Origin: Sediminicoccus rosea
Lineage (GTDB): Bacteria; Pseudomonadota; Alphaproteobacteria; Acetobacterales; Acetobacteraceae
DNA length: 64,000 bases
Assembly: GCF_033547095.1 (NCBI RefSeq)
Contig: NZ_CP137852.1
Coordinates: forward strand, 3,589,501-3,653,500
Direction of reading: 5' to 3'
The translations under genes were made by a program, and so were the position numbers. How positions within the stretch are numbered: position 1 is the stretch's first letter; each line of letters begins with the position of its first letter. Shown here piece by piece: positions 19,931-39,855 of the stretch. A model generated the notes under the pieces. That model saw nothing but the letters and a program-made list of their open reading frames with translations, was not told where the DNA came from and did no database searches.

Positions 19931-19999
19931 TGGCACGACAACCGGACGCGCCGCGCTCCCTGCGCGAAGCCCCGCTGACGACACCGGCGCCCATGCAGC

Positions 20000-21103: not shown

Positions 21104-21267
21104 GCCCGGGCCATCCGTGGAAGCCGGTGCCACGCGAGACGGAGCGCGATGCCCACAAGCCGGATCGGCACCGCCACCCCGGCGCGCGGCCCGAAGCCGG
21201 CCGCGCGGGCCAAGGGCGGGGCGAGGCCGAGTGCGGCGAAGGGCCCTATGCGCGGCGCGGTGCTCAC
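21100..21267 (-). CDS. Small 55-aa hydrophobic-basic protein between two flavoproteins
   Basis: A GTG at 21267, with GAGG nine bases before it, starts a frame whose TGA overlaps the ATG of the next gene; it begins 11 bases after the stop of the preceding gene. The peptide ([20 protein letters not shown]...) has a hydrophobic/amphipathic second half ([19 protein letters not shown]) that could lie on the membrane. No family is recognised. Spacing and coupling are as expected of a real gene in the operon. Confidence 0.5.
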
Positions 21268-21277
21268 CTGCACGGCC

Positions 21278-22609: not shown

Positions 22610-22619
22610 GTGGATGCTC

Positions 22620-22644
22620 CTTGATGCATCGAGGGGTGAGGTAT
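22620..22644. promoter_or_regulatory. Putative PadR operator, copy 2
   Basis: Read on the minus strand: ATACCT-CACC-CCTCGATGCATCAAG. It matches the copy upstream of padR (23114-23138) at all 21 positions outside the four-base spacer. It sits between the padR stop and the flavoprotein start, just upstream of that gene's ribosome-binding site. The core GATGCATC is a perfect palindrome. The two copies are in opposite orientation relative to the operon. Confidence 0.6.
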
Positions 22645-22670
22645 CAGGATCTGAAAAGACACGGTCCGGG

Positions 22671-23102
22671 TCACGGGCAGCAGGCCCCGCCGGCGCGCTG
22701 CTCCGCCCGCACGCGGTCGGCGGCGGCGAAGGCGCGGCCGGTGTCCTGCAGGGCGGCCGTCGCTTCCATCCAGGCCTCCAGCGCCACACGGAAGGCAGCG
22801 CGGCCGGCATCGGTCAGCGCATAAACCCGGCGCTGGCGGCCGCCCACGACCTCTTCCGTCGCGGTGACGAAGCCGCCGGCCTCGAACTCGCGCAGCACGG
22901 GGTAGATGGTGCCCTCGGTGGGGGAACAACAGCCATTGGTGGTGCGCTCGACCAGGCGGGCGATGTCGTAGCCGTGCAGCGGCCCGTCATGCAGGACACG
23001 CAGGATGAAGAACTTGCTGAGGCCCATCTTGATCGTACCCGCCCAGTAGTCGCGGGAGGCGTAGTTGACGCGGGGCGGGGCGGTTCGGCGGGTGAGGTCC
23101 AT
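22671..23102 (-). CDS. PadR-family regulator with cysteine pairs
   Basis: A 143-aa PadR repressor. The helix-turn-helix region is KFFILRVLHDGPLHGYDIARLVE, and the wing region TEGTIYPVLREFEAGGFV is typical. Between them NGCCSP replaces the usual residues with a vicinal Cys pair, and the protein ends GGACCP, giving two pairs that could sense a metal, metalloid or oxidant. The C-terminal helix is the dimerisation helix. ATG 23102 lies only eight bases after a -10-like TATAGT, so the mRNA may be nearly leaderless; an ATG at 23027 (MGLSKFF) is the alternative start. Confidence 0.85.
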   Translation of the reverse strand: MDLTRRTAPPRVNYASRDYWAGTIKMGLSKFFILRVLHDGPLHGYDIARLVERTTNGCCSPTEGTIYPVLREFEAGGFVTATEEVVGGRQRRVYALTDAGRAAFRVALEAWMEATAALQDTGRAFAAADRVRAEQRAGGACCP

Positions 23103-23205: not shown

Positions 23206-25038
23206 TCAGTCGTCCTGCGGCACGAGCCGGTCGAAGGTCAGCCCGCTCTGCCCCTCGCCGCGGCCGGTGCACTTCCGCATCGCCAGCCAGACATAGGTCC
23301 GCCCGGAGCGCCCGCGCGTGCGGCGAAATGCGCGAGTGACCTGCACGCCGGCGCGCGGCACCTCCTCTTCCGCCAGGAAGTAGGCGGCGGGTTTCGCCTG
23401 GTCGAGCCCCTCGCGCAGCGTTGCGGTGCGCGGGACGATGCGCCGGGGCCGTCCGGCCTCGCCTTCGATGAAGCGCAGCATGGATCCGCGCTGCAACAGC
23501 GTCTGGCGCGTCGAACCCGGCTCCCGCGCGGCGAGGAAGGGAATCCAATGCTCCGCCACCGGCGACATCGCGTCGTAGCGCAGCGGCGCGGTGGGCGCGG
23601 TGGGCGCGGGCGGTGGCACAACCGGCGGGCGCACCTGCTGCTCGAAATGGCGGCGCAACTCGCGCGCGGCCTCGGCGCCGGGGCGGGTGCGGCCGTCCGG
23701 CATCGGCACGGTGCGCTCGATGCCCCAGACGAGGTTCGCCATCTCGTCGCGCATCAGCAGCACCTCGTCGAGCGGCCGGCCCTGCTGGATCTTCGGCGTC
23801 ACCGGCGCGACGAAGAGGCCGGTATCCGCCGTCTGCCGCCCGCGGCCGCGGATGCTGTTGGTGAACATGGTCCAGCGGTTCCGGTCGTCATCCTGCCCCG
23901 CCCCTGCCGGGCGGACCCAGAAGCGCTCTCCGAAGACATTGGTCACGGCGATGCCGGAAAGCTCCGCCAGTTCCCCCCGCGGCAGCGAGAGCGGCATGAG
24001 GTACCAGTCATTCGCGTAGAGCAGTGCGAATTCGAGAAAGGCCATCCGGCCGAGATCGGTGGTCGAGACCTCGATGCCGCCGAGATTCGTGCGGCCATCC
24101 TCGAAGGCCCACCAGCGCGTGTCGGGCATGCCGGGAAAGGTGAGCGGCACGGGCAGCAGCGCGGTTGCCGTCTCGCGCAGCGCGGCGGGCGCGCCAAGCG
24201 GCGCCGCCTTGGGGTCAAGGTCGTAGCCGTGCCAGTCAAGCTCACCGCCGTGATGCTCAGCGGCGACCAGAACCTTCTCGCCGGCGCGTGAATCGCTGGC
24301 CAGCGCGAAGCGGTATTCCAGCCGCTCGGGGTGCCAGGCATCCTCCTCCGGCGCGGGCGGGGCGACGTATTGCCGCGCGAACCAGGCGCGGAAGGGCTTG
24401 GCCAGGTCATCCAGCGCCGGCGCCGCCGCGCCGGCATTCATCCCGTCGGAGGCGGCGCCGCCCTCCTCCAGGTGGCGCAGCAGCTTCCAGCCATCCATCG
24501 CCCGCCCTGCCGCCGCGGCGAAGCTCTGCACGACATCGGGATGCGCTGCCGCCGGCGCATGGCGCGGATCGGCGCGATCGGGCAACTCGACCCGATACAG
24601 CTCCGTGTAGCGCAAGGCGAAGTCGCCGACACCGCGCGCGAGCTTCAGCCAGTAGCGGCCCATCTGCAGCCGGATGTCGAGCGAGATGGGCTGGCCCGCG
24701 CGCAGGAAGGGGATGGGCCGTGCCTCCACCCGGGCCTCGAGCGGCATGGCGGGATCGAGGTCGAGCGCGGGGGCGGTACCGCAGCGAAAGCGCGAGACCG
24801 GGGCGCTGGCATGGACCGGCGAGGCGGAGATCGGCGAACCCGCGTCGTCACCTTTGTACTCGCCCATCTGCCATTGCCGCGTGAGCATGAAGAGCGCGTC
24901 GTGCACCTCGGCGCGCAGCGCGCCCTTGATGTCATCGGTGCGCGGCCGCCCCTCCAGCCGGTTCCATCCGACCAGGGTCGGCAGCTTGCGGTTGGTCAGA
25001 AGCTCCGCGAGGCGCGGTGTGACGAAGCGGTCGCTCAT
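23206..25038 (-). CDS. Uncharacterised protein, gene 6 of the giant-protein operon (610 aa)
   Basis: Last gene of the six-gene minus-strand operon; its ATG overlaps the stop of the 1810-aa gene (ATGA, 25035-25038). No signal peptide, membrane helix or known enzyme motif is visible. Landmarks are an N-terminal VHDALFMLTRQWQMGEYKG, a central DTRWWAFEDGRTNLG and a FALLYANDWYLMPLSLPRGE block, followed by VTNVFGERFWVRP. These read like signatures of a conserved, probably structural family rather than chance sequence. I recall similar proteins annotated only as hypothetical in other bacteria, but could not check. A Pro/Ala-rich linker lies near residues 465-490. Confidence 0.8.
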   Translation of the reverse strand: MSDRFVTPRLAELLTNRKLPTLVGWNRLEGRPRTDDIKGALRAEVHDALFMLTRQWQMGEYKGDDAGSPISASPVHASAPVSRFRCGTAPALDLDPAMPLEARVEARPIPFLRAGQPISLDIRLQMGRYWLKLARGVGDFALRYTELYRVELPDRADPRHAPAAAHPDVVQSFAAAAGRAMDGWKLLRHLEEGGAASDGMNAGAAAPALDDLAKPFRAWFARQYVAPPAPEEDAWHPERLEYRFALASDSRAGEKVLVAAEHHGGELDWHGYDLDPKAAPLGAPAALRETATALLPVPLTFPGMPDTRWWAFEDGRTNLGGIEVSTTDLGRMAFLEFALLYANDWYLMPLSLPRGELAELSGIAVTNVFGERFWVRPAGAGQDDDRNRWTMFTNSIRGRGRQTADTGLFVAPVTPKIQQGRPLDEVLLMRDEMANLVWGIERTVPMPDGRTRPGAEAARELRRHFEQQVRPPVVPPPAPTAPTAPLRYDAMSPVAEHWIPFLAAREPGSTRQTLLQRGSMLRFIEGEAGRPRRIVPRTATLREGLDQAKPAAYFLAEEEVPRAGVQVTRAFRRTRGRSGRTYVWLAMRKCTGRGEGQSGLTFDRLVPQDD

Positions 25039-28000
25039 GGCGGCACCTTCATGAATCGCGCGACGCCGACATTCGCGGCCAGCACGGCGGAGATGGTGAC
25101 GTCCCGCGGCGCGGCCGCCATGTAGGTCGCGGGCAGCATCTGGCCGAGCACCGGGTCATCCAGATGTTCGGGCTCAACCGCGCGGATGCGCATCAGCTCC
25201 CAGCTGGAATCCAGCGCGCCGACGATATCCTCCCAGTGCCAGGTGCCATCTGCGGTGGCGGGCGTGACGAGCAGGAAGGATTGCGGCGCCTCCGCATTCG
25301 GCCGGTCGAAGTGGAAGGCGACGCCGGAGGCTTGCTTGTGCAGGTCCTCCACCTTCGTGTCGGGCGCGCGGCGGGCGCCGGGCAGCACCTCGGTCCATTC
25401 ATCGAGCACGAGGCCCTTGAAGCGCCCGCTGCCATCGGGCGGCGCGGCGAGATGCACGGTATGGAGCAGCCGCGTGCCGTCCAGGTCGTAATCCTCCGGG
25501 AATTCGAGGCCGAGCCAGCTATCCTTGGCGCGATAGGGCAATTGCACCGGCGCCAGCGCGATCTCCGCCACGCCCAGCGCCTCGCCGTAGAGCATGGCGG
25601 CTTCGAGCTCCTGCGCGGCGGGGCGCACCCGCGCAACACCGTGCAGCCACTCCTCGACCGGCAGCGGGATGCCGGCCGTCATGGTCAGGTGCTCCAGGGT
25701 CTCGCCCGATTGCGCGGTGGCCAGGGCCCTTTCGAAGCTGGCCAGCGGCGGGCCGGCCAGTGCGAAGCGCGGCAGGTGCAGGAAGCCCTCCCCGAACAGC
25801 GCCTCCGCGGCCGCGGCCGTCAGTTCCGCGCGGCGCGCCGCATCGGGCGCGGTCGCGGCCTCGGCCAGCCTCTCCGCCGCGGCCCGCGCGCGGCGGCCGG
25901 CCACATCGGCCAGCGTCCGCGCCAGGGCTTGAACCTCCGTGACACCGGCCGCCGCCTCCGCGCGCAGCTTCTCCGTCGTGACATCGCCGGTCGGGAAGCG
26001 GGTGTCGTCAAGGATGGCGTCGAGCGCGGTCGCCGCCACGCCGATCGCACCCGCGCGGGCCGTCGTGACGGCGCGCAAGCGATCGGTCAGGGCGGCGAAG
26101 GCCAGACGGCGCGCGCGCACCTCTGCCTCCAGCGCGGCCGTGTCGGCGCCGGCCGCGGGCAGCTTCGCCGGCAGTTCCAGGTCGGCCTCGCGCAGGATAG
26201 CATCCGCGGCCCCTGCTGGCGCCGCGGCAAGCCGTGCCAGCGCGGCGTCGCAGCGGACAAGGCGCGCCGTCCAGCCCTCCAGCAGGCTCCGCGCCTGGGT
26301 CATCACCATGTCGAGCAGGCGCCGCTGCATGTCGCGGACGCGATCCGGGCTGCTCTGCGCGATGCCGAAGCGCCCGGCCTCGATCAGATGCCCGGCTGCG
26401 GTCCCGATCAGCGCGTCGATCCCCATCAGGGCGCCGCCCAGCCGCGGCGCGGGATCTTCAAGCGCGGCGGCGCAGTCGGTGGCGAGCAGCCTCGCCGCAT
26501 CGCCCAGCGCGACAAGGCGGGCGAGCGGCGCGGCGAGCGACGCGCCCTCCTCCGTCACCGCCTGCGCATCCGCGAGCGTCGTCGCATTCTCCGGGATCAG
26601 GTCGGTCGGGCGCAGCGGGCGCGCGGATTTCAGCAGTGCCGCGACAGGTCGCAGAAGGGCTCCCGCTTCGAGCAGGCTGATACCGCCGGCCGGCCCCTCG
26701 GCGAAAGCGATGGCAAGCTTCGCATCGGGCCGGAAGCGCGCGGGCTCAGTCGTGAGAACATGCTCGGCGACCAGGGTGGACAGCGCCGCAAAGGCGCCCT
26801 CCAGCTCTTCCGAGCGCCAGAGATGCACGAGGTCGAGCGGTGCGAGGCCGAGTTCGGCCAGCGTGACCCAAGCATCCTTCGCCGAGCCGTCCACCGGATC
26901 CAGCCAGCGCACCCGACAGCCGATCTGGCCGAGTGGCGGCAGCACGCGGCAGAGCCACTCATCCAGCTCCGGCTCCGCCAGCGCGCGCGGCGTGGCGCCA
27001 GCAGCGGGAGCGACCTCCTCCTTCAGATGCACGGCGAGGCGCAGGGTCAGCGCGATGCCGCTCGCGGGCGTGCGCACCACCTCGGGCTCCGGCGCGGGCT
27101 CGCCCTTGGCGAAGGCGTCGAGCGCCGCGGCGGCGCGGTCGAAATTGCCCTGCACGGACTGGTGCACCGACTCCGCCAACGCGAGGTCGCCCAGCGCGTC
27201 GTGCAGCTCCTCGAGCCTCTGCGCCTCCTCGCTGATCACGCGCGCCTCCTCAGCCGTGGCCACCGGCAGCGTGGCGCCGAGCCCGAATGGATAGTCGCGC
27301 TGGCCGCTGGCGCGCATCTGCGCCAGCAGCTTCAGCCCGTCCACCACATTGCGCGCGGCCTCCTTGCCCTGGTCCGCCACGGGTGCCGCGGTTTCGGGAA
27401 GGCCGCCGGCGACCAGCGGAAAGGCGCGGCGCAGCTCCAGCAGGAAGTCGTCCGTCTCGGCCTCCGCCCAGCGGTCATGCAGGGCGCGCTCGAAGCGGTA
27501 ACCGAGCAGCGCCGCGAGGCTCTGCCCTGTCCGCATCCCGTCCATCAGCGCGAGCCCGGCACGAACCCGTTCGGAGGAGAGGTTCACGCCGACCGCCGCA
27601 CGCTCGGCATCGCTCTCCGCACTCATATAGGCGCTGCGCAGGATGGCAGCGGTGACCGCGTGATCCAGCGAGGGCGCATGGACAAGGCCGCCATTCGCCG
27701 TGTCGGCCAGCAGCTCCGGTAAGGTGCCCTGCGGGTCGAGCAGCTTCGCCTCGGCGTCGCTCAGTTCGGCCGGCGAGAGGCGACGCGCGCGCGGCCGCAC
27801 ATCCTGCAGCCAGCCATAGGCGCCGAGATGGATGCCCCGGCGCTTCATCCGCGCGAGTTGCGCGTTCGGGATCCCGAGCAGCCAGGCATCCAGCCGGTGC
27901 GAGCAGCTGTCGAGGTGATGGCGCAGCGCGCGATCCGCCTGCCCTTGGCTCGCGCCCGACATGAGGCGCAGCGCCGCGATCTGTTCGGCGAGGTCCTGCG

Positions 28001-30467
28001 TCTCCTTGCTGCGGCCAAGCTCCTTGGCAAGGAACTCGGCCATTGGCTGCAGCGGCTCCCCGGTCACGTCAGGTGCGGGTTCGAACAGGCTCTCCCAGCG
28101 GCTCTCGACCGGAAAGGCGCGCTTGGCGGTGATGTGGGGCAGCGCCTCCTCACGAAGGGCGGCGCGCGCGGCATCCTCAGTGAAGTCGCGCGAGCGGAGC
28201 CGCATCGCCACCGCCGCATCGCTGTAGCCGAGCAGCAGCGCATGGCGCAGCAGGATGTAGAGCAGCGCATGTGGCACGCGCCCATCAGGAAGGGTGGTCT
28301 GGTCGCGCACCATCTCGACCGATCGTTCCGCTGCCTCGGCGAGCCAGGCGATGTAGCGCTGGTGCTCCGTCTCGAAGCCCGGCTGCAAGGGCTCCGAGGC
28401 GACGGTGCCGCCATCCAGGACGCCCTGCGGGCCCTGCAGCATCAGCCGCGCGATCTGCGGCACCTCCGCTGGCGCGGCGCCGAGGGCCGCGAGGAAATCC
28501 ACCACCGCCCGCTTCAGCTCCTCCGGCTCCGGCAGGTCGGTCCAGGCGATGGAGACGAGGCGGAACAGGTTCGCCAACTGCCGGTCAGCCTGGGCGTAGC
28601 GGAAGTGGAACTCCGCCGAGGCGGGATGCAGGCCGAGCACGTCGAGCAGCGCCTGCCCGGCATCACCGGGTGCGCCCACCTGCGCGACCCCGTCGGCATA
28701 GGCGCGCCACCGGAGGCGCATCTCGTCCAGCAGCGGATGCATGCGGGCGAGGATATCCTCCCGGCCACGGCGGCCGTCCCGCTTCAGCCAGGCGATGCGG
28801 TCGAAGGCGGTCACCGGCAGTACGCCATAGGGTTGGCGCCCGATCCGGATGGCGGGCAGCCGCCCGCCGCCCGCCACATGCGCGATGAAATGGCGCCGCA
28901 CCTCGCCGATCGTCGCGCGGCCGACCACGGGGCTCAGCAGCGTGCCCAGGAAATAGCCGATCGTCCCCGGCCAGAGCGCGGCCCGCATCGCGCGCGCCAC
29001 CGCCTGGTCCTGCCCATCGGCGTTCAGCAGGCGCGCGGCCAGGGCCGGGTCCAGGCCCAGCGCCTCCGCCAGCACCTGCCCATCGCGCTTCTGCGACGCA
29101 TCCGCAGTGGGCGCGAAGAGGCCCTCGCCCATCACGGCGTCGAAGACGCGGTCCGGATCAGCGCGGCGGGCAAAGCCAGAATCACCCTCCTCGGTGTTGT
29201 TGGTGGGCGTGCCGTGCGGCACCAGCGCGAAATCCGCATTGGAGTGCAGGCGGTGCGTGACGAAGCGCGCGAGGCGCGCGGCGCCCTCGGCCGGGTCGGG
29301 CGTGGCACAGACGCCGATGACATAGAGCCGGTCGAAACCCTCGCGCGCCTCCTCGGCGGAGAGATCCACGCGGAAGCCCATGCCCAGCTTCACCGCCGTA
29401 TCGAAATCGGCGAGCCAAGCGGTCTCCTCCGGGAAGTTCAGCGCCGCGCCATCCGCCACCGGCGTCCCGCCGAGCAGCCCGCCAGCATCGAAGCCGACAT
29501 GCAACGGATGCGCCACCGGCTCTCCCAGTACCTCGCGCCGCGTGCCGGCGCGGGAGAGCACCAGCACGAAGCGCTCCGGCAGCGGGTCAGCGACGGCGGC
29601 CGCGTTCCAGGAGGCCGGCGCGGCCGGCGGATCCTCCGGCCATTGCAGGAACACGACGCCGGCCCAGCGGCGCGCACCGCCCTCGGGTCCGAAATCGGCA
29701 AAGCGGTGGGGCACATGGGTCTGCACCACCTCCGCCGCCACCGCTTCGCCGAGACGCGCGGCGAGCGCGTCGAAGGCGGCCTGCTGCTGGGCGGCGTCAC
29801 TCCCCGCATGCCACATCGCCTTCCAGAAGCCGCTGATCTCCTGCGCCTCGGCCGGCATGGCCTGCACGGGAATGACCAGGACCACTTCGACCTCGGCGGC
29901 CTTCGGCTCGTCCGCCGGGTTCAGCGGCGCGTAGCTGGCGACGATGTGGCGCGCACGGCCGGCACCATGGCTTGCGACCAGAGCGCGCCAGGCAGCACGA
30001 TGCCGCGCCTCCGATCCGGCGGCGCACCAGCGCTCCGTCCAATAGGTCTTGGCGCCGGCGAGCTCTGTGGCGCTGAGGCCCGGCTGGAAGGCATCCACCA
30101 GGCAGGAGTCGGGATAGACGCGGACCCAGAGCTGCGGATCGCCCCGCGGGCCACTGCCGAAGCGCGTTTCAAGCCGCAGCGGCAGCAGCAGCAGCGGGTC
30201 GCTGTCCGGCATGGCGCCGACCGCCTTGCGAGGATCGGAGAAGGCGGCGAAGGCAGCCTCCGCCGTGCGCAATTCCTCCCTCGCCTTTTCCATCCGGCCC
30301 AGAGATGCCTTGTCGGCGCGGCGCAGGCTCCGGGGCACCTCGCCATCGCCCGCCCCGCGCTCCGCCATGCGCAGCCGTGCGCGCGCATCGCGCGCGGCTG
30401 CCTCCGCTTCGGCGAGGGCCTGGCGGGCCTTGGCCAGGGTGGCGGCGCTATTCTCGAAGCCCGGCAT
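25035..30467 (-). CDS. Uncharacterised giant protein, gene 5 of the operon (1810 aa)
   Basis: The largest protein of the window. Residues ~5-75 are a charged coiled coil (ATLAKARQALAEAEAAARDA). A LLLLPLRLETRFG block follows near residue 95, then a GRLPAIRIGRQPYGVLPV block near 540. At about 985-1030 are VNLSSERVRAGLALMDGMR and ALLGYRFERALHD. The remainder is mostly helical, Ala/Leu/Glu-rich, with mixed beta near the end. There is no signal peptide, transmembrane segment, nucleotide-binding loop or recognisable catalytic motif. It starts 11 bases after the 1066-aa gene with GAGG before the ATG, and overlaps the 610-aa gene by four bases. Function unknown. Confidence 0.82.
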   Translation of the reverse strand: MPGFENSAATLAKARQALAEAEAAARDARARLRMAERGAGDGEVPRSLRRADKASLGRMEKAREELRTAEAAFAAFSDPRKAVGAMPDSDPLLLLPLRLETRFGSGPRGDPQLWVRVYPDSCLVDAFQPGLSATELAGAKTYWTERWCAAGSEARHRAAWRALVASHGAGRARHIVASYAPLNPADEPKAAEVEVVLVIPVQAMPAEAQEISGFWKAMWHAGSDAAQQQAAFDALAARLGEAVAAEVVQTHVPHRFADFGPEGGARRWAGVVFLQWPEDPPAAPASWNAAAVADPLPERFVLVLSRAGTRREVLGEPVAHPLHVGFDAGGLLGGTPVADGAALNFPEETAWLADFDTAVKLGMGFRVDLSAEEAREGFDRLYVIGVCATPDPAEGAARLARFVTHRLHSNADFALVPHGTPTNNTEEGDSGFARRADPDRVFDAVMGEGLFAPTADASQKRDGQVLAEALGLDPALAARLLNADGQDQAVARAMRAALWPGTIGYFLGTLLSPVVGRATIGEVRRHFIAHVAGGGRLPAIRIGRQPYGVLPVTAFDRIAWLKRDGRRGREDILARMHPLLDEMRLRWRAYADGVAQVGAPGDAGQALLDVLGLHPASAEFHFRYAQADRQLANLFRLVSIAWTDLPEPEELKRAVVDFLAALGAAPAEVPQIARLMLQGPQGVLDGGTVASEPLQPGFETEHQRYIAWLAEAAERSVEMVRDQTTLPDGRVPHALLYILLRHALLLGYSDAAVAMRLRSRDFTEDAARAALREEALPHITAKRAFPVESRWESLFEPAPDVTGEPLQPMAEFLAKELGRSKETQDLAEQIAALRLMSGASQGQADRALRHHLDSCSHRLDAWLLGIPNAQLARMKRRGIHLGAYGWLQDVRPRARRLSPAELSDAEAKLLDPQGTLPELLADTANGGLVHAPSLDHAVTAAILRSAYMSAESDAERAAVGVNLSSERVRAGLALMDGMRTGQSLAALLGYRFERALHDRWAEAETDDFLLELRRAFPLVAGGLPETAAPVADQGKEAARNVVDGLKLLAQMRASGQRDYPFGLGATLPVATAEEARVISEEAQRLEELHDALGDLALAESVHQSVQGNFDRAAAALDAFAKGEPAPEPEVVRTPASGIALTLRLAVHLKEEVAPAAGATPRALAEPELDEWLCRVLPPLGQIGCRVRWLDPVDGSAKDAWVTLAELGLAPLDLVHLWRSEELEGAFAALSTLVAEHVLTTEPARFRPDAKLAIAFAEGPAGGISLLEAGALLRPVAALLKSARPLRPTDLIPENATTLADAQAVTEEGASLAAPLARLVALGDAARLLATDCAAALEDPAPRLGGALMGIDALIGTAAGHLIEAGRFGIAQSSPDRVRDMQRRLLDMVMTQARSLLEGWTARLVRCDAALARLAAAPAGAADAILREADLELPAKLPAAGADTAALEAEVRARRLAFAALTDRLRAVTTARAGAIGVAATALDAILDDTRFPTGDVTTEKLRAEAAAGVTEVQALARTLADVAGRRARAAAERLAEAATAPDAARRAELTAAAAEALFGEGFLHLPRFALAGPPLASFERALATAQSGETLEHLTMTAGIPLPVEEWLHGVARVRPAAQELEAAMLYGEALGVAEIALAPVQLPYRAKDSWLGLEFPEDYDLDGTRLLHTVHLAAPPDGSGRFKGLVLDEWTEVLPGARRAPDTKVEDLHKQASGVAFHFDRPNAEAPQSFLLVTPATADGTWHWEDIVGALDSSWELMRIRAVEPEHLDDPVLGQMLPATYMAAAPRDVTISAVLAANVGVARFMKVPP

Positions 30468-30478
30468 GGCGAGTTCCC

Positions 30479-33400
30479 TCAGCTCCGCTTCAACATCTCG
30501 GCGGCGTGGATCGCGACCATCACGGGTGCCTGGTAGAGCAGATAGGCCCAGCGCGCCGCGGAGATGCCGGCCGCGAGAACCTTCCCATCGTCCTCGCGCT
30601 GGCGTGCCTTCTCCATGTCAGCGGCGCCGAGCGGCGCCAGCGCGGGGATCGTGACGGCCGGGTCGATGAACTGCCGCGTCGAGCCGGACGGGATCAGGTC
30701 CGTCCAGACGATGTCGTTCACCGTCTGCAACGCGCCGGTGCGCTGCGGATCGAAGCCGAAGCGCGGCTCACCGGGACGCTCCTTCAGCACAAAGAACCAG
30801 CCGGCATTGTCCGTGGTGGCCGGCCCGGCGACACGTCCCTTGGCCTCCTCCTCGTCAAGGTCGAAGCCGAAGAAGGTGATGTCCGGCTCCACCTGCGCCT
30901 CGAAGAGCGGAAAGCGCATCGCATCGCGCGGCGGATCGGCCAGCGCGCTCTCGGGCACGTCCAGCAGGCGGCGCTCGCGCGTCGGGTCGGGGCGGCCCGA
31001 CGCGTCCACGTCCCACACGGCGCGATGCGCGTAGATCACGGCGTTGGGATATTTCTTCAGCAGTTCGCCGCGGATCAGGAGCACGAGGTTCTCCCCCTGG
31101 CGCGCCGGATTTTCGCGGTTGTCATGCGTACCGAGGCGCGAGCGCCGGGGCCAGGTGTGGATCTTCGGGATGTCGCGCAGGCTTTCGCGGAAGGCCTCCG
31201 TATCGGTGCCGGGCGGCGCCACCTGGCCGCGTACGTCCCAGAACTGCCGGAAGACGGAGCCGCGCTGGTCCGTCGGATATTCACGCCACAGCAGCTCGCG
31301 CGCGAATTCGTGGTTGAGTCCGACCATATAGGCCTCGATGAAGGCCTGGTTTGTGACGACCGCGGTGATGCTGTTCTGCTTCACCAGCGAGAGGCCAGGC
31401 ATCAGGAATTCCTTCGAGACCTTCTCCAGCGGCTTGTACATCGGCGTGTCGATGACCGGATGGTGCATGATCTCATCGAATTCCTCCGGCAGTGCGGCGA
31501 GGATGCGCGGCGGGATCGAGAGGCCGTGCAGGGCGCGCGCGCGCAAGGTCACGCGCGGCTGAAGCGCGGAAGTGATGTCGCCCACCAGCCCACCGAGATC
31601 GAGTGCTGCGCGCGGCTCGCGCTTCGCCGCGGCATGGCTGGCGGCCACCAGGTCGAACCAGGCGGCGGCGGCCTCGACCAGGCGCTGCGTCTCCTCGCGC
31701 GCGCCGCGCTTCCCGTCGCGGGGCTCCGCACCCGGCTCGCCGATCGCGATGGTGGCGAGCTTCGGGATGGCCGCGAAGCGCTCCGCCGATGCCTCTGCAT
31801 CCGCCAGCAGCTTCGCCAGGGCCAGGCCGCCACGGTTGCGCTGCCGCTGGAAGCGCAACCGCGCCAGGAGACCTGGCACCGACTTCTCCGCCAGGATGTC
31901 GAGCGTCGGCAGGCCGCGCGGCGGGGCCTTGGGCGGCACGATGTGCAGGGCGCCATCGTTCAGCCGCGCGAGCATCTCGCCCGCATCGAGGCGCTTCTCC
32001 CGCGAGGCCAGACGGAACAGCCGCCCGCCTGGCCGCAATGCGCGGGAGGCGGCGGCCGAGAGCAGGCCGGCGCCGAGCCGGCTCGCATCCACCGCTGCGC
32101 GCGCCGTGCGCCCACCGCTACGCAGGCGGCGCTGGGCCGGGCGCGTCAGCCGCAGGAAGCGGTCGGGCTTCGCCGCGGCCGCCACGAAGCGACGAAGGAA
32201 CCACGCCTCCGAGACCTCGATCGCATAGCGGGTGTTGCGCAGCTTTCGGTTGGCCTTCACGACGTCGCCCACCTGCTCCCAGGCGGCGTCCATATACTCC
32301 TCCTGGCCCTGCTGGATCACCGTGGTGCCCGCGGCGGCCGCGACGCGATGCCGTGGGTCGAGGTTCAGCCCATGCACCCAGTTGTCGGTGTGCGGCAGCG
32401 GCGCACCGGTGGCGGTGGCCAGCAACCGGTCCACCGCTGCGTGCCAGCGCCCATAGAGCGGCGGCACCACCACCGGGTCGGGCGAGACATCCTCATCCGT
32501 CCCGTCCTCCGCCACCGCGCCGAGATCGAGGCCCGCCGCGTTCGCCGTGTCGTCATGCGCGTCGGGCGCGGCCTTGCGCAGATAGTCGTCAGCGAGATTG
32601 ATCAATCCCGCGAGTGCCGTCTGGAAGGGCTGCGGCGCTGGCGCGTCCCAGGCCTCGAAGGTCCGGCGGCGCGCGAGCGAGGGCGCATCCAGCACGGAAT
32701 CGGGCGCCCGCAGCGCGCCGCCCAGCTTCAGCACGCCGCCAAGCTGCAGGCGGTTGATCGCCGGCAGGTTGAGGCCCGGGCGAAGCACGTCCATGTCGCG
32801 GTAGCCGACCCGCGGATCGATGTTTGCCGCCTTCAGCTTGCGCACCAGCGTCTCGAAATCGCCGGTCTCCGCGGTGCGGAAGAACCAGCGGTGGTAGAAG
32901 GGCATCAGCAGCGGCTCGGGCCGGCCGGCATAGGCCTCCCACGCGCTCGTGGTGCCGGAGGGAACGGCGCCCGTCGCACCGAGCCCGGCCAGCCTTCCCG
33001 TCTCGTAGGCGGGCATCAGGAAGGCGTGGTAGGCGGTGTTGGGCTGCAGGCGACGCGGGCAGACCAGGCGCGACATCGCGACGTCCGGATCAGCGGCGAG
33101 CAGCGCCGCAAGGCGGGGCAGCACGGCCGCCATCTCCGGCGAGACGAACTCCGCCTCACTCCCGGCGAGCGAGGCGTTGACCTGCACATGCGCCCAGGCC
33201 CAGAGCTCGCGCGCGGGCGGGAAGGGATCGAAGCTCGCCGCGTGCACATAGGCCAGCGGCCGGCCGGCGAGGTCACTGCCCTCCTCGAACTCGGTCTCCG
33301 CCAGCACCACCAGTGCGATCCAGGGCGCGAGCCGCAGGCCGCCATGCGTCGGGCCCTCAGGCGAATAGCGCCAGGGCAGATCCTCGTCATAGAATTCGAC

Positions 33401-33679
33401 CTGCGCGAGGTAGTTGGGCTCGGCATTCGTCACCCAATGGTTGGGGTCGCGGCGGATGATCGCACGCGGCTCGATGCCGACCACGTCGCCGGGTCCATAG
33501 AGCGTCACGCCCTTCGTCACCGTGCTGGTCAGCGGCGCGCCGCCCGCCACCGGCTCGGCGCTCACCTGGAGGCCGACCTGAACGCTGGGCCGCAGCGCGC
33601 CGGCGGGCAGCGGCCCGCCGATCAGCCCGCCAAGGCCGCGCCGGTACCAGGGCAGGAAGCTGTAGACAGCGTTCGTCAT
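30479..33679 (-). CDS. Uncharacterised giant protein, gene 4 of the operon (1066 aa)
   Basis: Begins MTNAVYSFLPWYRRGLGG and overlaps the upstream 1150-aa gene by four bases (ATGA at 33676). Landmarks are NYLAQVEFYDEDLPWRYSPE followed by LAPWIALVVLAETEFEEG (about residues 85-135), an ARG/Arg-rich central region (residues ~515-560) and a C-terminal block NHEFARELLWREYPTDQRG with FRQFWD. The last resembles a conserved signature I recall from hypothetical proteins, unverified. No known enzyme motif or signal peptide. Its size and coupling to the neighbours suggest a component of a large assembly. Confidence 0.82.
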   Translation of the reverse strand: MTNAVYSFLPWYRRGLGGLIGGPLPAGALRPSVQVGLQVSAEPVAGGAPLTSTVTKGVTLYGPGDVVGIEPRAIIRRDPNHWVTNAEPNYLAQVEFYDEDLPWRYSPEGPTHGGLRLAPWIALVVLAETEFEEGSDLAGRPLAYVHAASFDPFPPARELWAWAHVQVNASLAGSEAEFVSPEMAAVLPRLAALLAADPDVAMSRLVCPRRLQPNTAYHAFLMPAYETGRLAGLGATGAVPSGTTSAWEAYAGRPEPLLMPFYHRWFFRTAETGDFETLVRKLKAANIDPRVGYRDMDVLRPGLNLPAINRLQLGGVLKLGGALRAPDSVLDAPSLARRRTFEAWDAPAPQPFQTALAGLINLADDYLRKAAPDAHDDTANAAGLDLGAVAEDGTDEDVSPDPVVVPPLYGRWHAAVDRLLATATGAPLPHTDNWVHGLNLDPRHRVAAAAGTTVIQQGQEEYMDAAWEQVGDVVKANRKLRNTRYAIEVSEAWFLRRFVAAAAKPDRFLRLTRPAQRRLRSGGRTARAAVDASRLGAGLLSAAASRALRPGGRLFRLASREKRLDAGEMLARLNDGALHIVPPKAPPRGLPTLDILAEKSVPGLLARLRFQRQRNRGGLALAKLLADAEASAERFAAIPKLATIAIGEPGAEPRDGKRGAREETQRLVEAAAAWFDLVAASHAAAKREPRAALDLGGLVGDITSALQPRVTLRARALHGLSIPPRILAALPEEFDEIMHHPVIDTPMYKPLEKVSKEFLMPGLSLVKQNSITAVVTNQAFIEAYMVGLNHEFARELLWREYPTDQRGSVFRQFWDVRGQVAPPGTDTEAFRESLRDIPKIHTWPRRSRLGTHDNRENPARQGENLVLLIRGELLKKYPNAVIYAHRAVWDVDASGRPDPTRERRLLDVPESALADPPRDAMRFPLFEAQVEPDITFFGFDLDEEEAKGRVAGPATTDNAGWFFVLKERPGEPRFGFDPQRTGALQTVNDIVWTDLIPSGSTRQFIDPAVTIPALAPLGAADMEKARQREDDGKVLAAGISAARWAYLLYQAPVMVAIHAAEMLKRS

Positions 33680-36600
33680 GCGGCCACCTCGAAGCCCGGG
33701 AGCACCTGCACGCGGCCCGCAAGCGAGGGGTCGGCGCGCAGCATCCCGGCCATATGGGCGCGCGCCTCCGCCTCGCTGCCGAAGGCGCCACCCGGCATGG
33801 CCGCATTGTCCAGGGCGGAGGCGACGACGAAGCGTTCACCCACCGCCTCGACCTTGTCGGCGAAGGGGACCTTCGCACGCTGCGCCTGTGCCGAGAGGCC
33901 CGAGCGGGAAACCGCCGCACCGGCCAGGAAGCGGCGCGAGAAGACGGCCTCGAGGCCGCGCAGGCGGCGCGCGGCGGGCGCGCCCTGCGTGTCGATCGTC
34001 GCAAGCTCGTAGCGGTTCGCGCGCTTGATGGCGGCAGCGGAGAAGGCGGTATGCCCGGCCGGCGTCAGCTCCACACCGCCGGTCATCGGCTCGAAGCCGG
34101 GGGCGGCCAGCCGATCCGCGTCGGACAGATCGTTGAACTGCGCCGCCGCGAAGCTCTCTTTCACATCGGCCGACTTCGCGAGACCACCGGGCAGGGCCGA
34201 GATCGAGAAGCGGCGCCCGTCGCGGGCCTTGCGGTTGCCGAGCTTCGCAACCGGCACGTCCAGCGGCACGAGCTTCTGCACGATGCGCAACGTGCCCGCG
34301 GGGTGCAGCACGAGCGCCGCCTCCTCCGGCGGCAGGCTGCGCATGGTGACAAGCCCGGTGCGGCCGGTGGGATTGAAGGCGCGCCAGTTCTCCTGCTTGT
34401 CGAGCTCGGCGGCCAGGAGCGGCAGGACCGCCACATCAGGCAGCGGCGCGCCACGCGGCTCGCCCCAGGTGACGTCGATGGAGACGCCGATGTCGAAGAA
34501 AAGCAGCGAGATCGAGGCCTCGCCGCGCGCACGCCAGGGCGTCGGCCCTTCCAGCCGGAGCCGGATCGAGAGGCCCCAGACGCCCAGGCCGAAGACCTTC
34601 ACCGAGAAATGCGACTGGATCTCGACGTCGAACGACAGCGGGGAGAATTGCAGCAGGGCGTCGAAGCTCGTCACGCTCTCGACGCTCAGCACCTCGAAGC
34701 CGAGGAAGATCTCGGCGCGCGCGCCGAACTGCGCGGTGTTGGAGGTGACGGCGAAATAGCCCTCCGCGCGGATCCGCGCCCAGCTCTCGTTCAGGATGGT
34801 GACCGAGATGCGCGTCGGCACTGGGAAGGGCAGCGGCGGCGGGGTGAAGCGCGGGTGGAAGCCGCCGATCGAGAGGACGAAGTTCGCGTCATCCCCGAAG
34901 GCCGCCAGCAGCCCCATATCGCCATCGAGGGTGATGAAGAGGATGCGTGAATCAAACAGGCTGGCGAAGAACCAGAGGCGCTGGCGGTCGAACTCGATGG
35001 CGCCGACGAAGCTGACCTGCAGGACCACGACCGGCGCGACCTCCGCCGGGAGCGCCACGCGCAGCACGCCGAGGATGGCGATGTTGCCCGGGATCTCGAT
35101 GATGACGCCGAGCGAGATCGAGACCAGCGTCGGCGTGCCCCAGCCCAACTTGGCCATGGGCCCGATCAGGAAGGTGCCTTCCTCCGGCGGGAAGATCGCG
35201 CGCAGGTCCGAAATGATGCGCGGCGCATTGGCGACGATGTCGCGCGGGAACATGATGTTGTTCACCGCGCCGTTGCGCACGCCGGCCACTAGCGCATCGA
35301 GGCGCATCGTGCGGTTCAGCCCCACAAGCCCGCCGACGCCGAGCAGCGTGAAGCCGTAGCCGAGCTGCAACCCCGTCGAGCCGAATTCCGCCGTGATGAT
35401 GACCAGCAGCGAGAAACCGTCGGAGCCATCCGGCATGCGCGTCGTCAAGATGCCGATGGCCTTGAGGCTCAGGAACTCGGCGAAGGTCAGCTCCAGCGCG
35501 CCGGCATATTCCCCTCGCTCCGCATCGATGAAGAGATAGCCGCCGCCGCGCACCACCCCTGCGTCGATGGACAGGCCGATGCCGTTCGGCGGCTTGAAGC
35601 CCACGGCGAGGTCGAGCGGGCCGAAGGCGCCGCGTCCATCGGCTGCGGGCACCAGAGAGAGGGTGATGCCGATATTCTCGACGCTCGCGCGCAGCGGGCC
35701 GAGATTGAGCGAGAAGCCGGCGCCGAGCGACAGCCGCGCGCCATCCGTCCCACCGCGCGCACTGACGTAGATCGTCTCGAGCTCGAAGATAGTGAGGTCG
35801 AGGTTGATGGGGATCTGGAACTCGATGCCGCCACTGCCCGCGATAGCGAGGCCGCTGCGCGAGGACCATAGCATGTCCACGCCGAAATCAGCGTCGAAGC
35901 CCTCGCCCAGCACCTGCCGGATGAAGCCGTCCGCCTCATCGAAGGCGACATGCAGCTTGAGCTTGCCGCCGCCAGCGCCGGTGTTTGCGCGGAAGAAGGC
36001 CTCCGGATTGGCGATGTTGCCGGCGAAGCCGCCTTCCACGGTGAACCCGTCGAGCTCGAGCCGGGTCTTTTCCCGCGCGCCGAACAGGAGATAGGGCTCG
36101 GATGGCGCGCCGATCAGGCTGATCTTGGCGGCGAGCTCCACGCCGGGGCCGGCGCTGGCCGTCACGCCATCCGGCAGGATCCGCAGCTTTACCGCATCGG
36201 TGGCGCCGAAGGCCCCAGCGATGCGCAACGTCACCGCCTCACCGAGCGGAATGTCCACGGCCGCGCCGCCCGCCAGGATCGGCGCGACCACCACCCCGGC
36301 AGGCGCGCCAGCGGCGGGGCTGCGGGGCACGGGCAGCAGCGAGAGCCCGGCGCGCCAGCGCGCACGCTCGGCCAGGTGCTCGCCATCCACCATCGTCCAG
36401 TCGAGTTGCCGGACGCCCTGCGCCGCGGCGTGGGCAAGATCGATCTGACCATCGGCGAGGCCGAGGCGCGGCGGCCCCGTCTCGGCCTGGTGTCCGAGCA
36501 CGAGCGCGATGCGCTCGAAGGTCGTGATCAGCCGGCGATGGTCGAAGCCTGGCGTCCCCCAGCCGAAGTTCTCCCGCAGCACGCCGCCCGGATCCCCCAG

Positions 36601-37128
36601 CGCACGGCCGAGGCGCGCGAAATCGAGCACGGTGCGGGTCCAAGGCATGCGATGCGCGCCGGCCGGCGCCGCGCGCTCGAAGCGGATCACACCCAGCGCG
36701 TGGGTCGCTGCGAAGAGCAGCGGCTGGTGGCGCTCGAGGTAGAGGACCAGCAGGTCGGTGATCATCGCGCCCGCCAGCTCGTCCCAGAAGCCGCGTTGGT
36801 CGAAGGGCGCGCCCGAGACCGTGGCGCCCTGCAGCGAGGAGAAGCGCGCCGCCGTGTCCTTCACCGATTGCAGTACGTCCACCAGCGCGCGCAGGCGCTG
36901 CTGGTCGGTTCCGCTGACCAGCTGGTCGGTCCGCGCGGCGAGCTGCGCGATCAGCGGCTCCAGCGCGAAGGCGGCCCCGAGGGGCGTGAGCTGCCCGCCC
37001 GCGACCTCGATGTCCCAGCCGTAGCGGGCCAGCAGCGCCTCCATCTCGGCCGGGCTCGCGACGGCGGTGCGGAAGGGCGCGATGACGGCCAGGAACTCGC
37101 GCAGGACGGCTTCGAGGAGGGTGTTCAT
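33676..37128 (-). CDS. Uncharacterised beta-rich protein, gene 3 of the operon (1150 aa)
   Basis: The ATG at 37128 overlaps the upstream stop and has GGAGGATCT before it. The first ~250 residues are helical (LLEAVLREFLAVIAPFRTAV); from ~255 to ~1000 the sequence is almost entirely alternating short beta strands rich in Gly, Ile, Leu and Phe (GIGLSIDAGVVRGGGYLFID, LGVIIEIPGNIAILGVLRVA). A GGFHPRFTPPPLPFPVPTR segment occurs near residue 750. This suggests a long beta-groove, solenoid or barrel-like fold. It may belong to the DUF6603-type group; that is from memory and unchecked. No signal peptide. Function unknown. Confidence 0.82.
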   Translation of the reverse strand: MNTLLEAVLREFLAVIAPFRTAVASPAEMEALLARYGWDIEVAGGQLTPLGAAFALEPLIAQLAARTDQLVSGTDQQRLRALVDVLQSVKDTAARFSSLQGATVSGAPFDQRGFWDELAGAMITDLLVLYLERHQPLLFAATHALGVIRFERAAPAGAHRMPWTRTVLDFARLGRALGDPGGVLRENFGWGTPGFDHRRLITTFERIALVLGHQAETGPPRLGLADGQIDLAHAAAQGVRQLDWTMVDGEHLAERARWRAGLSLLPVPRSPAAGAPAGVVVAPILAGGAAVDIPLGEAVTLRIAGAFGATDAVKLRILPDGVTASAGPGVELAAKISLIGAPSEPYLLFGAREKTRLELDGFTVEGGFAGNIANPEAFFRANTGAGGGKLKLHVAFDEADGFIRQVLGEGFDADFGVDMLWSSRSGLAIAGSGGIEFQIPINLDLTIFELETIYVSARGGTDGARLSLGAGFSLNLGPLRASVENIGITLSLVPAADGRGAFGPLDLAVGFKPPNGIGLSIDAGVVRGGGYLFIDAERGEYAGALELTFAEFLSLKAIGILTTRMPDGSDGFSLLVIITAEFGSTGLQLGYGFTLLGVGGLVGLNRTMRLDALVAGVRNGAVNNIMFPRDIVANAPRIISDLRAIFPPEEGTFLIGPMAKLGWGTPTLVSISLGVIIEIPGNIAILGVLRVALPAEVAPVVVLQVSFVGAIEFDRQRLWFFASLFDSRILFITLDGDMGLLAAFGDDANFVLSIGGFHPRFTPPPLPFPVPTRISVTILNESWARIRAEGYFAVTSNTAQFGARAEIFLGFEVLSVESVTSFDALLQFSPLSFDVEIQSHFSVKVFGLGVWGLSIRLRLEGPTPWRARGEASISLLFFDIGVSIDVTWGEPRGAPLPDVAVLPLLAAELDKQENWRAFNPTGRTGLVTMRSLPPEEAALVLHPAGTLRIVQKLVPLDVPVAKLGNRKARDGRRFSISALPGGLAKSADVKESFAAAQFNDLSDADRLAAPGFEPMTGGVELTPAGHTAFSAAAIKRANRYELATIDTQGAPAARRLRGLEAVFSRRFLAGAAVSRSGLSAQAQRAKVPFADKVEAVGERFVVASALDNAAMPGGAFGSEAEARAHMAGMLRADPSLAGRVQVLPGFEVAA

Positions 37129-38873
37129 AGATCCTCCGCGCGGATCGGCAGGTCCCGGACGGTGGAGCCCCAGACGTGGGTGACGCTGTAGTCCCCGTTC
37201 GGCACTTGGTTGATGCGCCCCCCCCCCAGTTCGACGTAGCGAAAGCCGGGATAGACGTGCTGCTCGAAGAAGTCCGACATTTCGGCCTGGGTCGAGGGCG
37301 CGGATGCGAAGACGGGCAGGAAGGCCCGGCGGCTTGCCAGTCCATCCACGGCATCGGATTCGTTCTGCATCGCGTAGCGATAGGCCCAGCCGAGCCCGTG
37401 CTCGCAGATCACCTGCTTGCGGCCAGCGGCGGGGCCCAGGATGTCGGTGCTGTACCAGATCATCTTGTTCCGCGCTGGCAGCACGGCGGGGGCGGCGGGG
37501 TTGATGATGTGGTCGGCGCTGTGGCGGGCGGCGCGTGGCGCGCAGATGGCGACCTTGACGCGCTGGTTCGGCGGAACCAGCGGCGCATTTGGCGTGGAAT
37601 GCGCGGTAGAGGCGCCACCCGTCAGGGGCGACCACCCATTGTAGTACCAGCCGCGCTCGCCTGCCCCGCGTCCGGCGATGCCGGACCACCGCCAGTGCAT
37701 GTGCACGCAGCTGTGACCACAGAAGGGCGCATGGATCTGCGTGTTGCCGTAGCGGTCCGGCCGGCCCATATCGGCATGCAGGTGGATGTTATCGTACTGG
37801 CCCTGGCGGTCGGCTTTGATGACCACGTAGGCATTGGTGTAGGCGATGGCGCCCGCGACCGGCCAGATGTAGTTGGCGCGGCGCCGCAGCGTCGCCCTGT
37901 AGAAGTTGCCATCGGCCGGCCCATAGACGCCGACGATCTCCTTCTCCTGGGTGAAATTGGCGTGGATGTAGTCGAACACCATGCCCCAGGAGGCCGGCAG
38001 CCCTATGATCCGCGCGCCGATCACGCTCAAGCCGTAGAGAGACTGGCGCCCGTTCGTGACGAGCCCACCGAGCGTGACGTTGTTCGGGTCCCCAAGATAC
38101 ATGAAGGAGGTGTTGCTGTCGGTGTAGAAGCCCGGGATGTTCGCCGCCGGCGGATGCGCGCCGCCGTGTCCAGCGTGGTTGTGCGCCATGACGTTGTCGG
38201 CGGTGATCCGCACGCTGCCGCGGAATTTCTGCACGCGCTTGGTCGCGCCTTCCGCCGACCAGGTCCAGGCGAGCTGCGGGTAGCAGCCCATCGCGACCGG
38301 CACCCCGCCCGGGTCGAAGTCGTTGATCGCGCCGCGCAGCACCACCACGAATTCCAGCGTCACGTTGCAGGTGCCCGTGCCGGACAGGACATTGTCGGTC
38401 AGGCGCAGCCGCAACCCGTATTGCATGAGCGGATCGGCCGGATCGACCGTGAAGCGGCGGCCATTGCGGCGCAGCGCAAAGCTCGCGCCCGCGCCGCCCA
38501 GGGCGCGGGCCACGTCGAAGGTCGCGCTCGATCCGTCGTCGAAGGTGATCATGAGGTCGGTGAAGTCGATGCGCTGGAACACGCGCTCCGCGCTGAGCGT
38601 GCCGCCGCTGCTCGGCTGGGTGCCGCGCGCGACGGCGTTGGTGATCACGAGCCCCTGCGCCGAATCCACGCGCCAAGTGAACTCCCAGTAGGGGGTGCGC
38701 CCCTCACGCGCTTCCTCGGAGGTGGCGGGCATGCCGAGCCGGAGGCCAGGCGGCGGTCCGGTGACAGCGGTGTCACGGTCGCGCAGCAGCAGATCGCCGG
38801 GGGCGTCCTCCCACCGGATCTCGTCGAACATCGTCGTCTGGGTGTCGAGCGTCTTGCCACCGATGTAGCGCAT
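37125..38873 (-). CDS. Uncharacterised His/Cys-cluster protein, gene 2 of the operon (582 aa)
   Basis: The ATG at 38873 follows the first gene's stop by four bases; its own stop overlaps gene 3 (ATGA). The N-terminal half is beta-rich (WEFTWRVDSAQGLVITNAV). Two histidine clusters stand out: MAHNHAGHGGAH (H231, 233, 236, 240) and, at 364-393, IHLHADMG followed by IHAPFCGHSCVHMHWRW (six His and two Cys). That density suggests a metal site, as in copper or zinc proteins, but it does not match a metal enzyme I know. Later motifs include YYNGWSPLTGG and KMIWYSTDILGPAAG. No signal peptide. Confidence 0.8.
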   Translation of the reverse strand: MRYIGGKTLDTQTTMFDEIRWEDAPGDLLLRDRDTAVTGPPPGLRLGMPATSEEAREGRTPYWEFTWRVDSAQGLVITNAVARGTQPSSGGTLSAERVFQRIDFTDLMITFDDGSSATFDVARALGGAGASFALRRNGRRFTVDPADPLMQYGLRLRLTDNVLSGTGTCNVTLEFVVVLRGAINDFDPGGVPVAMGCYPQLAWTWSAEGATKRVQKFRGSVRITADNVMAHNHAGHGGAHPPAANIPGFYTDSNTSFMYLGDPNNVTLGGLVTNGRQSLYGLSVIGARIIGLPASWGMVFDYIHANFTQEKEIVGVYGPADGNFYRATLRRRANYIWPVAGAIAYTNAYVVIKADRQGQYDNIHLHADMGRPDRYGNTQIHAPFCGHSCVHMHWRWSGIAGRGAGERGWYYNGWSPLTGGASTAHSTPNAPLVPPNQRVKVAICAPRAARHSADHIINPAAPAVLPARNKMIWYSTDILGPAAGRKQVICEHGLGWAYRYAMQNESDAVDGLASRRAFLPVFASAPSTQAEMSDFFEQHVYPGFRYVELGGGRINQVPNGDYSVTHVWGSTVRDLPIRAEDL

Positions 38874-38877
38874 GGCG

Positions 38878-39855
38878 TCACCCGATCGCCGAGCGCAAGT
38901 GCGAGACGCAGACGGGACAGAAGCCGATCGCGCCCACACGCGCCGGAAGGTAGCCGAGGCCCGGCGCGCGGCGCATCAGGCAATCTTCCGCCGGGCGGTA
39001 GGCCTTGCGACGGTAGCCGGCGCCGCCTTCCCAGAAGGCGACGCGCCCTGCCGCGTAGGGCGCGGCCGGCAGCGCTGTGTTGGGCAGGTCATGCGCGGGG
39101 CGTGGTTGAACCACGGCCGGCGCCAGCGCCTCCACCGGCGACATGACATGCCGCCAGGCAATGAAATCAGCATTCATGACGGGCGGCGCGTCGCTGAAGA
39201 CGACGTTGGGCGCGTTCGCGAGCTCGGGCGAGGTCTCGGTCGCGGCGGCGAAGGCGGCCCCCTCGCGCTCATATTCGTCGGCAAGGCCGAGCGCGGTGCC
39301 GATGCCGCGCAGCACCACCTGGTGCCACAGCCCGTTCGCCGTGGTCGCCACCAGATGGTACTCGCCGGCCGCGGGCCGCACGTGATCATCGGCGCCAGCC
39401 GGATCGGCCATGGCGGGCGCGATCACGGCGACGAGCCCGCCCGTCACACCATAGGTGATGCCGCCCGCGCCGTAGAGCGCCGCGAGCGGCACTTCACCCA
39501 CCGCGGTCGTCACGCTTTGTGTTGCCAGCACCGCGCCGAGCAGCCCGTGATCCACCGCCAGACGGTTCGTCGCACCATCCACGAAGGATGAGAGGAGGGT
39601 GGAATGGCCCGGCGCCCCGGCGATGCGCGGGCCCGAACTCGTGCTCGGCATGAAGACCTTGATCACGGTCAGCCACTCCGGGCGAACGCGTGTCCGGTTG
39701 AAGGGCGTGGTGGCGAGGATGGCCTCGATCAGATCGTGGCAGAGCGCGGAGAAGGCTCCGCGTTGCGCCGCGGTGAAACCCTCGGCGACCAGGATCAGCT
39801 TGAATGAAGCGTCGAGCGCATTGCCGACGCCGAAGGGATGGATCTTGCTCGCCAC
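38878..39855 (-). CDS. M64-like peptidase homologue with lost HExxH, gene 1 of the operon (325 aa)
   Basis: Starts with GTG at 39855 behind GGGAGGGG. The order of motifs follows the M64 (IgA-peptidase-like) family as I recall it: FKLILVAEGFTAAQRGAF (18-35), VIKVFMPSTSSGPR, then LADEY (191-195), and a C-terminal CLMR with FCPVC (313-316). In active members HExxH stands just before LADEY; here the aligned positions are L182-R183-x-x-G186, so zinc binding and catalysis should be lost. It may act as a binding or scaffold protein. It is the promoter-proximal gene of the giant operon. No signal peptide is visible. Confidence 0.72.
   Translation of the reverse strand: MASKIHPFGVGNALDASFKLILVAEGFTAAQRGAFSALCHDLIEAILATTPFNRTRVRPEWLTVIKVFMPSTSSGPRIAGAPGHSTLLSSFVDGATNRLAVDHGLLGAVLATQSVTTAVGEVPLAALYGAGGITYGVTGGLVAVIAPAMADPAGADDHVRPAAGEYHLVATTANGLWHQVVLRGIGTALGLADEYEREGAAFAAATETSPELANAPNVVFSDAPPVMNADFIAWRHVMSPVEALAPAVVQPRPAHDLPNTALPAAPYAAGRVAFWEGGAGYRRKAYRPAEDCLMRRAPGLGYLPARVGAIGFCPVCVSHLRSAIG

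Follow-up and report, generated by a model that had tools for sequence, protein, structure and literature searches.

What kind of system, if any, is encoded by six tightly packed genes for mostly very large proteins in Sediminicoccus rosea? The genes lie on the minus strand of a 64,000-nucleotide stretch of DNA, the whole of which is referred to here as the window (Table 1). They were originally predicted to share one transcript and to specify an undescribed multi-protein assembly. All six open reading frames were present with the predicted coordinates and sizes, and the junctions between them were the same on re-examination: genes 2/3, 3/4, and 5/6 overlap by 4 bp at ATGA, and gaps of 4 bp and 11 bp separate genes 1/2 and 4/5, respectively. 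A shared transcript seems probable from this spacing. Consensus scans, of limited use in a genome with 70% GC, revealed no outstanding promoter on the operon strand. Gene 6 is followed, at a distance of 103 bp, by a PadR-family gene of like orientation (PF03551, E = 1.6e-20), a possible local regulator and putative member of the operon. Downstream of the operon, the minus strand carries two adjoining genes for FMO/pyridine-nucleotide oxidoreductase-like proteins (window positions 20000-22810).

Table 1. Genes and features of the operon, in window coordinates; (-) marks the minus strand.
Feature	Extent	Coordinates	Description
Gene 1	325 aa	38878..39855 (-)	M64 (IgA-peptidase family) pseudo-peptidase in the enzyme slot; PF09471
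Degenerate M64 zinc site of gene 1		39271..39309 (-)	Gene 1 reads RGIGTALGLADEY; an intact homologue reads HELGHALGLGDEY
Gene 2	582 aa	37125..38873 (-)	Second slot protein, His/Cys-rich, without family match
Conserved His/Cys block of gene 2		37695..37784 (-)	HLHADMGRP...QIHAPFCGHSCVHMH; nearly identical in both known copies
Gene 3 (core P3)	1150 aa	33676..37128 (-)	DUF6603 protein; PF20248 at residues 442-1004
DUF6603 part of gene 3	residues 505-890	34459..35616 (-)	Long amphipathic antiparallel strands predicted by AlphaFold, pLDDT mostly 80-95
Gene 4 (core P4)	1066 aa	30479..33679 (-)	No family match; homologues in synteny
Gene 5 (core P5)	1810 aa	25035..30467 (-)	No family match; homologues in synteny
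Gene 6 (core P6)	610 aa	23206..25038 (-)	No family match; best conserved core member
PadR-family regulator gene		22671..23102 (-)	PF03551

Duganella radicis has intact homologues of all six genes in an identical order, with amino acid identities of 63-74% (66.5, 71.6, 74.2, 66.9, 63.3, and 69.4% for genes 1 to 6). The dN/dS ratios between the two species were 0.23-0.34 over all six genes, with a value of 0.28 for gene 1. The genes are under purifying selection and, given the intact homologues in Duganella, are not chance open reading frames. The possibility that they are never syntenic elsewhere can likewise be set aside, since the last four recur in order across many phyla.

The part that recurs, hereafter the core, consists of the DUF6603 protein, P4, P5, and P6, whose order is kept in ~50 loci spread over many bacterial phyla and over haloarchaeal plasmids. 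A scan with P6 returned 38 loci in several bacterial phyla, and plasmids added carriers in Streptomyces, Nocardia, Rhizobium, Gemmatirosa, and four haloarchaea; because P6 served as the query, systems lacking it are under-sampled in this collection. The best conserved of the core proteins, P6 retains 29 invariant residues among 37 sequences. Both the P3-P4-P5-P6 order and the strand were constant in loci with sufficient flanking DNA, with three exceptions: the order is rotated in L081, only the DUF6603 protein and P6 are found in L083, and P6 stands alone in L041. Outside annotated records, genes were called with a simple open reading frame picker, which missed or misjoined P4 in two loci (L022 and L024) and P6 in one (L003); tblastn confirmed their presence. 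In L041 (positions 19962-21767), on a Streptomyces anthocyanicus plasmid, the solitary P6 gene is intact and lies beside IS5 transposases, an apparent relic of a deleted core. On a Rhizobium lusitanum plasmid (L045), P4 and P5 are each divided into two open reading frames that remain in sequence; the points of division may correspond to domain boundaries.

The core is rare. P6 was found in 0/59 relatives and 0/397 other sampled genomes of the window's phylum, and in 6/247 and 5/246 genomes of the Bacteroidota and Actinomycetota samples, respectively (centre genomes counted). Overall, the core was present in only 1-2% of sampled genomes. In the P5 tree, the window and Duganella form a well-supported set with, next to them, Bacteroidota, Chlorobiaceae, and one actinomycete, a grouping unlike the species history. 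Since distant phyla have the gene order in common, yet so few genomes and none of the 59 relatives carry it, the core is, judging from its distribution, an accessory system that spreads horizontally. No clean empty site was demonstrated: in genomes of the same genus, the operon's two flanks were found at separate places. A Streptomyces europaeiscabiei plasmid (L093) carries the core between tyrosine recombinases, together with a DUF6262 gene, which suggests transfer by an integrative element. Viral contigs contained no relative of P6 or gene 2. An unverified faecal "bacteriophage" scaffold (MT835531, L094) does encode P6, P5, and part of the DUF6603 protein; it is more likely a bacterial fragment than a phage and gives no support to a phage origin.

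The original prediction held that no protein of the operon has a signal peptide or a recognisable catalytic domain, apart from a degenerate peptidase-like first gene and a His/Cys-rich second one. The degenerate peptidase was borne out by a Pfam match of gene 1 to the M64 profile (PF09471, E = 2.8e-7, 30.5 bits versus a cut-off of 26). Gene 3 encodes a full member of the DUF6603 family (PF20248, E = 9e-129, 430.7 bits versus a cut-off of 27, profile positions 2-501 of 502). Genes 2, 4, 5, and 6 had no credible family match in Pfam or NCBIfam (the P5 protein of the window had none at all in Pfam), and scans of the operon proteins against PHROGs and NCBIfam gave nothing useful. None of the six proteins matched a PADLOC family at E values up to 1, and PDB searches with single proteins and profiles found no sequence relative of known structure for the core proteins. 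The Pfam label applies to a single protein and does not assign it a function. The literature searched, which left most subscription journals outside, contained no paper naming DUF6603, PF20248, or Bd3614, and no paper found in it describes the surrounding four-gene system. The prediction of a candidate undescribed system, and of a putative multi-protein assembly, thus stands for genes 3-6, which keep their order across domains of life, and not for the six genes as one fixed set, as the positions of genes 1 and 2 are a slot open to exchange. There is good support for a four-protein core that is mobile and accompanied by a replaceable enzyme; in the literature searched, it is undescribed. The core alone comprises ~14 kb and four proteins of ~4,600 residues, kept across bacteria and archaea, mostly without a recognisable fold and with no known function.

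The strongest new finding concerns the gene immediately 5' of the DUF6603 gene. With classes assigned by Pfam on representatives and by BLAST to those representatives, this slot held a PhoD-like protein in 13 loci, an M64 peptidase in 6, an S1/Nal1-like peptidase in 4, an S8 peptidase in 3, and a patatin in 1. In total, a recognised hydrolase occupied the slot in 27 of ~44 assessable loci; the slots of the other ~17 contained a WD40 protein (L085) or proteins without a recognised family, or were empty. The catalytic motifs (HELGH...DEY, GTSMAAP, GDSG, and GD[VI]H) are intact in most of these enzymes. On the P5 tree, the slot class changes at least 11 times, where five classes would need only four changes. 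An architecture of constant scaffold and variable enzyme is therefore well supported, as one would expect if the system were a modular machine for delivery or sensing. The exchange also makes the purpose of the system testable, as different enzymes are encoded beside the same core genes. In Nocardia, an S8 peptidase is encoded downstream of the core instead. Two Algoriphagus loci (L056 and L057) encode a DUF6603 protein with an N-terminal extension of ~1,000 residues and have no recognised upstream enzyme gene, possibly a fusion of slot and scaffold.

In the window, the slot is filled by genes 1 and 2. Gene 1 matches the M64 profile in common with homologues from other loci, and its PDB matches to M64 proteins were marginal. 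Those homologues retain HExxH followed by DEY (intact in L007, L034, L038, and L082), whereas RGIGT stands where HExxH belongs in gene 1, with an equivalent loss in Duganella. Gene 1 should thus not be a zinc peptidase; the dN/dS values given above indicate that it is nevertheless maintained. The product of gene 2 is 72% identical to its Duganella counterpart, and its conserved His/Cys block is a candidate metal site. Searches of plasmids, of viral contigs, and of 189 other genomes from the class turned up no relative of gene 2, and the PDB gave no credible match.

For the DUF6603 protein, AlphaFold predicts ~25 amphipathic strands; many are hydrophobic on one face and polar on the other, as judged by alternating hydrophobicity. 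The best VIA match of this model was the beta belt of ApoB-100 (Z = 17.7, rmsd 9.2, 285 residues). The likeness, known here by prediction only, lies in a long row of amphipathic antiparallel strands; the two proteins have no sequence relation and differ in length and setting. Because the rmsd is high, the likeness is confined to the strand meander and does not extend to exact shape. Porins also matched, less well (Z = 12-14, rmsd 10-12), and the N terminus of the DUF6603 protein is not signal-like in a crude hydropathy test. The occurrence of homologues in Actinomycetota and archaea argues against an outer-membrane barrel. For P4, the AlphaFold model had a pLDDT of 78 and a pTM of 0.67; Foldseek searches of the PDB and of viral models returned noise, and VIA found nothing above Z = 5.

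With ApoB as the top structural match, the amphipathic strands could mean that the core is a lipid-handling or storage complex, in which DUF6603 would wrap lipid in the manner of apolipoprotein B, and that lipid would be remodelled by the enzymes of the slot. The patatin phospholipase and PhoD among those enzymes agree with this idea. We nonetheless regard it as improbable: the slot proteases (S1, S8, and M64) are together equally common and require no lipid, and the DUF6603 sheet could pack on partner proteins instead.

Several features hint at where the core proteins act. None of them has an N-terminal signal-like segment in a crude hydropathy test. Their cysteine content is 0.3-0.4%, compared with 1.0% in neighbour genes, and is the lower of the two in 60/61 loci. 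Low cysteine is a hint of export or of a structural function, not proof, since proteins of extracellular contractile injection systems (eCIS) also contain little (0.66%), with a somewhat higher value in slot enzymes (0.81%). In Pfam searches, single core members contained B_lectin, CarboxypepD_reg, PKD, FG-GAP, PQQ, or lamin-tail (LTD) domains. Such domains are typical of surface and extracellular proteins. One slot enzyme, the PhoD-like protein of L036, has a Tat-like signal.

Taken with the exchangeable enzyme, these features lead us to favor, tentatively and with less than even confidence, a particle that is assembled in the cytoplasm and probably released, in which a DUF6603 belt contacts lipid and an exchangeable hydrolase is presented to a membrane or surface. 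The mobile scaffold would be formed by the DUF6603 belt protein, P4, P5, and P6 and paired with the interchangeable enzyme encoded upstream. Without signal peptides, the scaffold proteins would assemble in the cytoplasm as one large enzyme-binding particle. The amphipathic beta sheet of DUF6603 might engage lipid, whether in a membrane or in a lipid core, or shield a hydrophobic interface, and attachment might be provided by the lectin, PKD, FG-GAP, or lamin-tail domains added in particular lineages. The particle would then leave the cell by lysis or another route and expose a target surface to the protease, phosphatase, or phospholipase that it carries. In the genome of the window, the non-catalytic M64-like protein is perhaps an adaptor, and gene 2, a probable metalloprotein, would supply the activity. 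Some of the evidence is less favorable to such a particle: proteins that lack signal peptides could just as well work in the cytosol, low cysteine also suits beta-rich structural proteins inside cells, the M64 protein of the window is dead, and the ~17 loci noted above lack a recognised slot hydrolase. If the particle is released, it would represent a new microbial means of deploying enzymes. The broader proposition that it belongs to a new class of released machine in bacteria and archaea, with a universal four-protein scaffold, an ApoB-like belt that engages lipid, a plug-in hydrolase carried to other cells or surfaces, and no contractile or membrane secretion apparatus, is more doubtful.

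The absence of signal peptides would also suit an intracellular conflict system such as phage defence. By analogy with abortive-infection systems, in which effectors are swapped, the giant proteins would sense infection and unleash the hydrolase. The sparse distribution of the core, its plasmid and integrase context, and the swapping of protease and phospholipase effectors are all consistent with this proposal. We consider it unlikely, because PADLOC gave no match, the core proteins showed no NTPase, nucleotidyltransferase, or receptor domain, and both the adhesion-type insertions and the Tat-like signal on one slot enzyme count against it. Should the operon serve in defence, it would do so without the usual sensor domains.

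The original prediction also pointed out that genes of contractile systems are missing from the locus, which is true of the window. In some other genomes, invisible to a reader of the window alone, an eCIS locus lies near the core. The core could therefore be an accessory or cargo complex of eCIS, made with, loaded on, or delivered by the particles. A sheath gene was found in 21/34 core genomes; among Bacteroidota, 9/16 carriers and 58/241 non-carriers had one (Fisher p = 0.008, from raw genome counts unadjusted for genome size). The distance between eCIS and core was ~10 kb in L036, ~20 kb in L011, and ~45 kb in Duganella, a proximity tallied post hoc. In Winogradskya humida, the eCIS gene run ends ~3 kb before the PhoD gene, upstream and on the same strand. 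Against such a role, no sheath match (PF04984) was found in the genome of the window or in 12 other carriers, and the core proteins are apparently far too big for the tube lumen. Like the core, eCIS are accessory clusters of several genes whose products lack signal peptides, and they neighbour the core in a few genomes; genes for sheath, tube, baseplate, and spike are all missing from the core itself. Core proteins had no Pfam or PHROGs match to eCIS components, and comparison with the eCIS proteins of neighbouring loci gave a single weak match, between P4 of L036 and an uncharacterised gene product encoded beside the eCIS (E = 7.7e-9). We treat the association as a lead; an eCIS accessory or cargo role for the core appears rather improbable. 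The Winogradskya humida run (L112, L067/L029; G080:C93, ~54.7-91 kb) consists of two sheath-like genes and VgrG-like, baseplate-like, and DUF6519-like genes, followed by the PhoD gene and the core operon.

Tc toxins resemble the proposed particle in the very large size of their proteins and, in manner of working only, in the idea of a scaffold that is released together with an enzymatic part that varies. A new family of Tc-toxin-like released complexes would be in keeping with a distantly related DUF6603 locus whose slot position is taken by a Bd3614-type deaminase, and with a very weak VIA likeness of the P4 helices to TcA, restricted to the helical region (Z = 4.2 for XptA2 and 3.6 for TcdA4). 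Values of Z < 5 are at noise level for helical bundles, however, so that the structural match is not significant. Pfam searches (E = 1e-3) of 25 P5, 23 P4, and 26 P6 members and of the window proteins detected no Tc family (VRP1 or TcA/TcB domains). We judge a Tc-toxin-like complex very unlikely and retain the enzyme-presenting particle as the preferred reading.

Sister DUF6603 loci with a different set of neighbours occur, for instance, in Streptomyces klenkii (L076 and L078-L080), Micromonospora rubida (L077), and a member of the Saprospiraceae (L075). They encode a protein of ~780 residues and a large third protein of ~1,000-1,800 residues. In searches of a small database, the ~780-residue protein was weakly similar to P4 (E = 1e-4 in L078, 3e-3 in L075, and 8e-3 in L080). 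The deaminase gene lies just upstream of the DUF6603 gene of L075, and the logic of the slot may therefore reach beyond the core described here.
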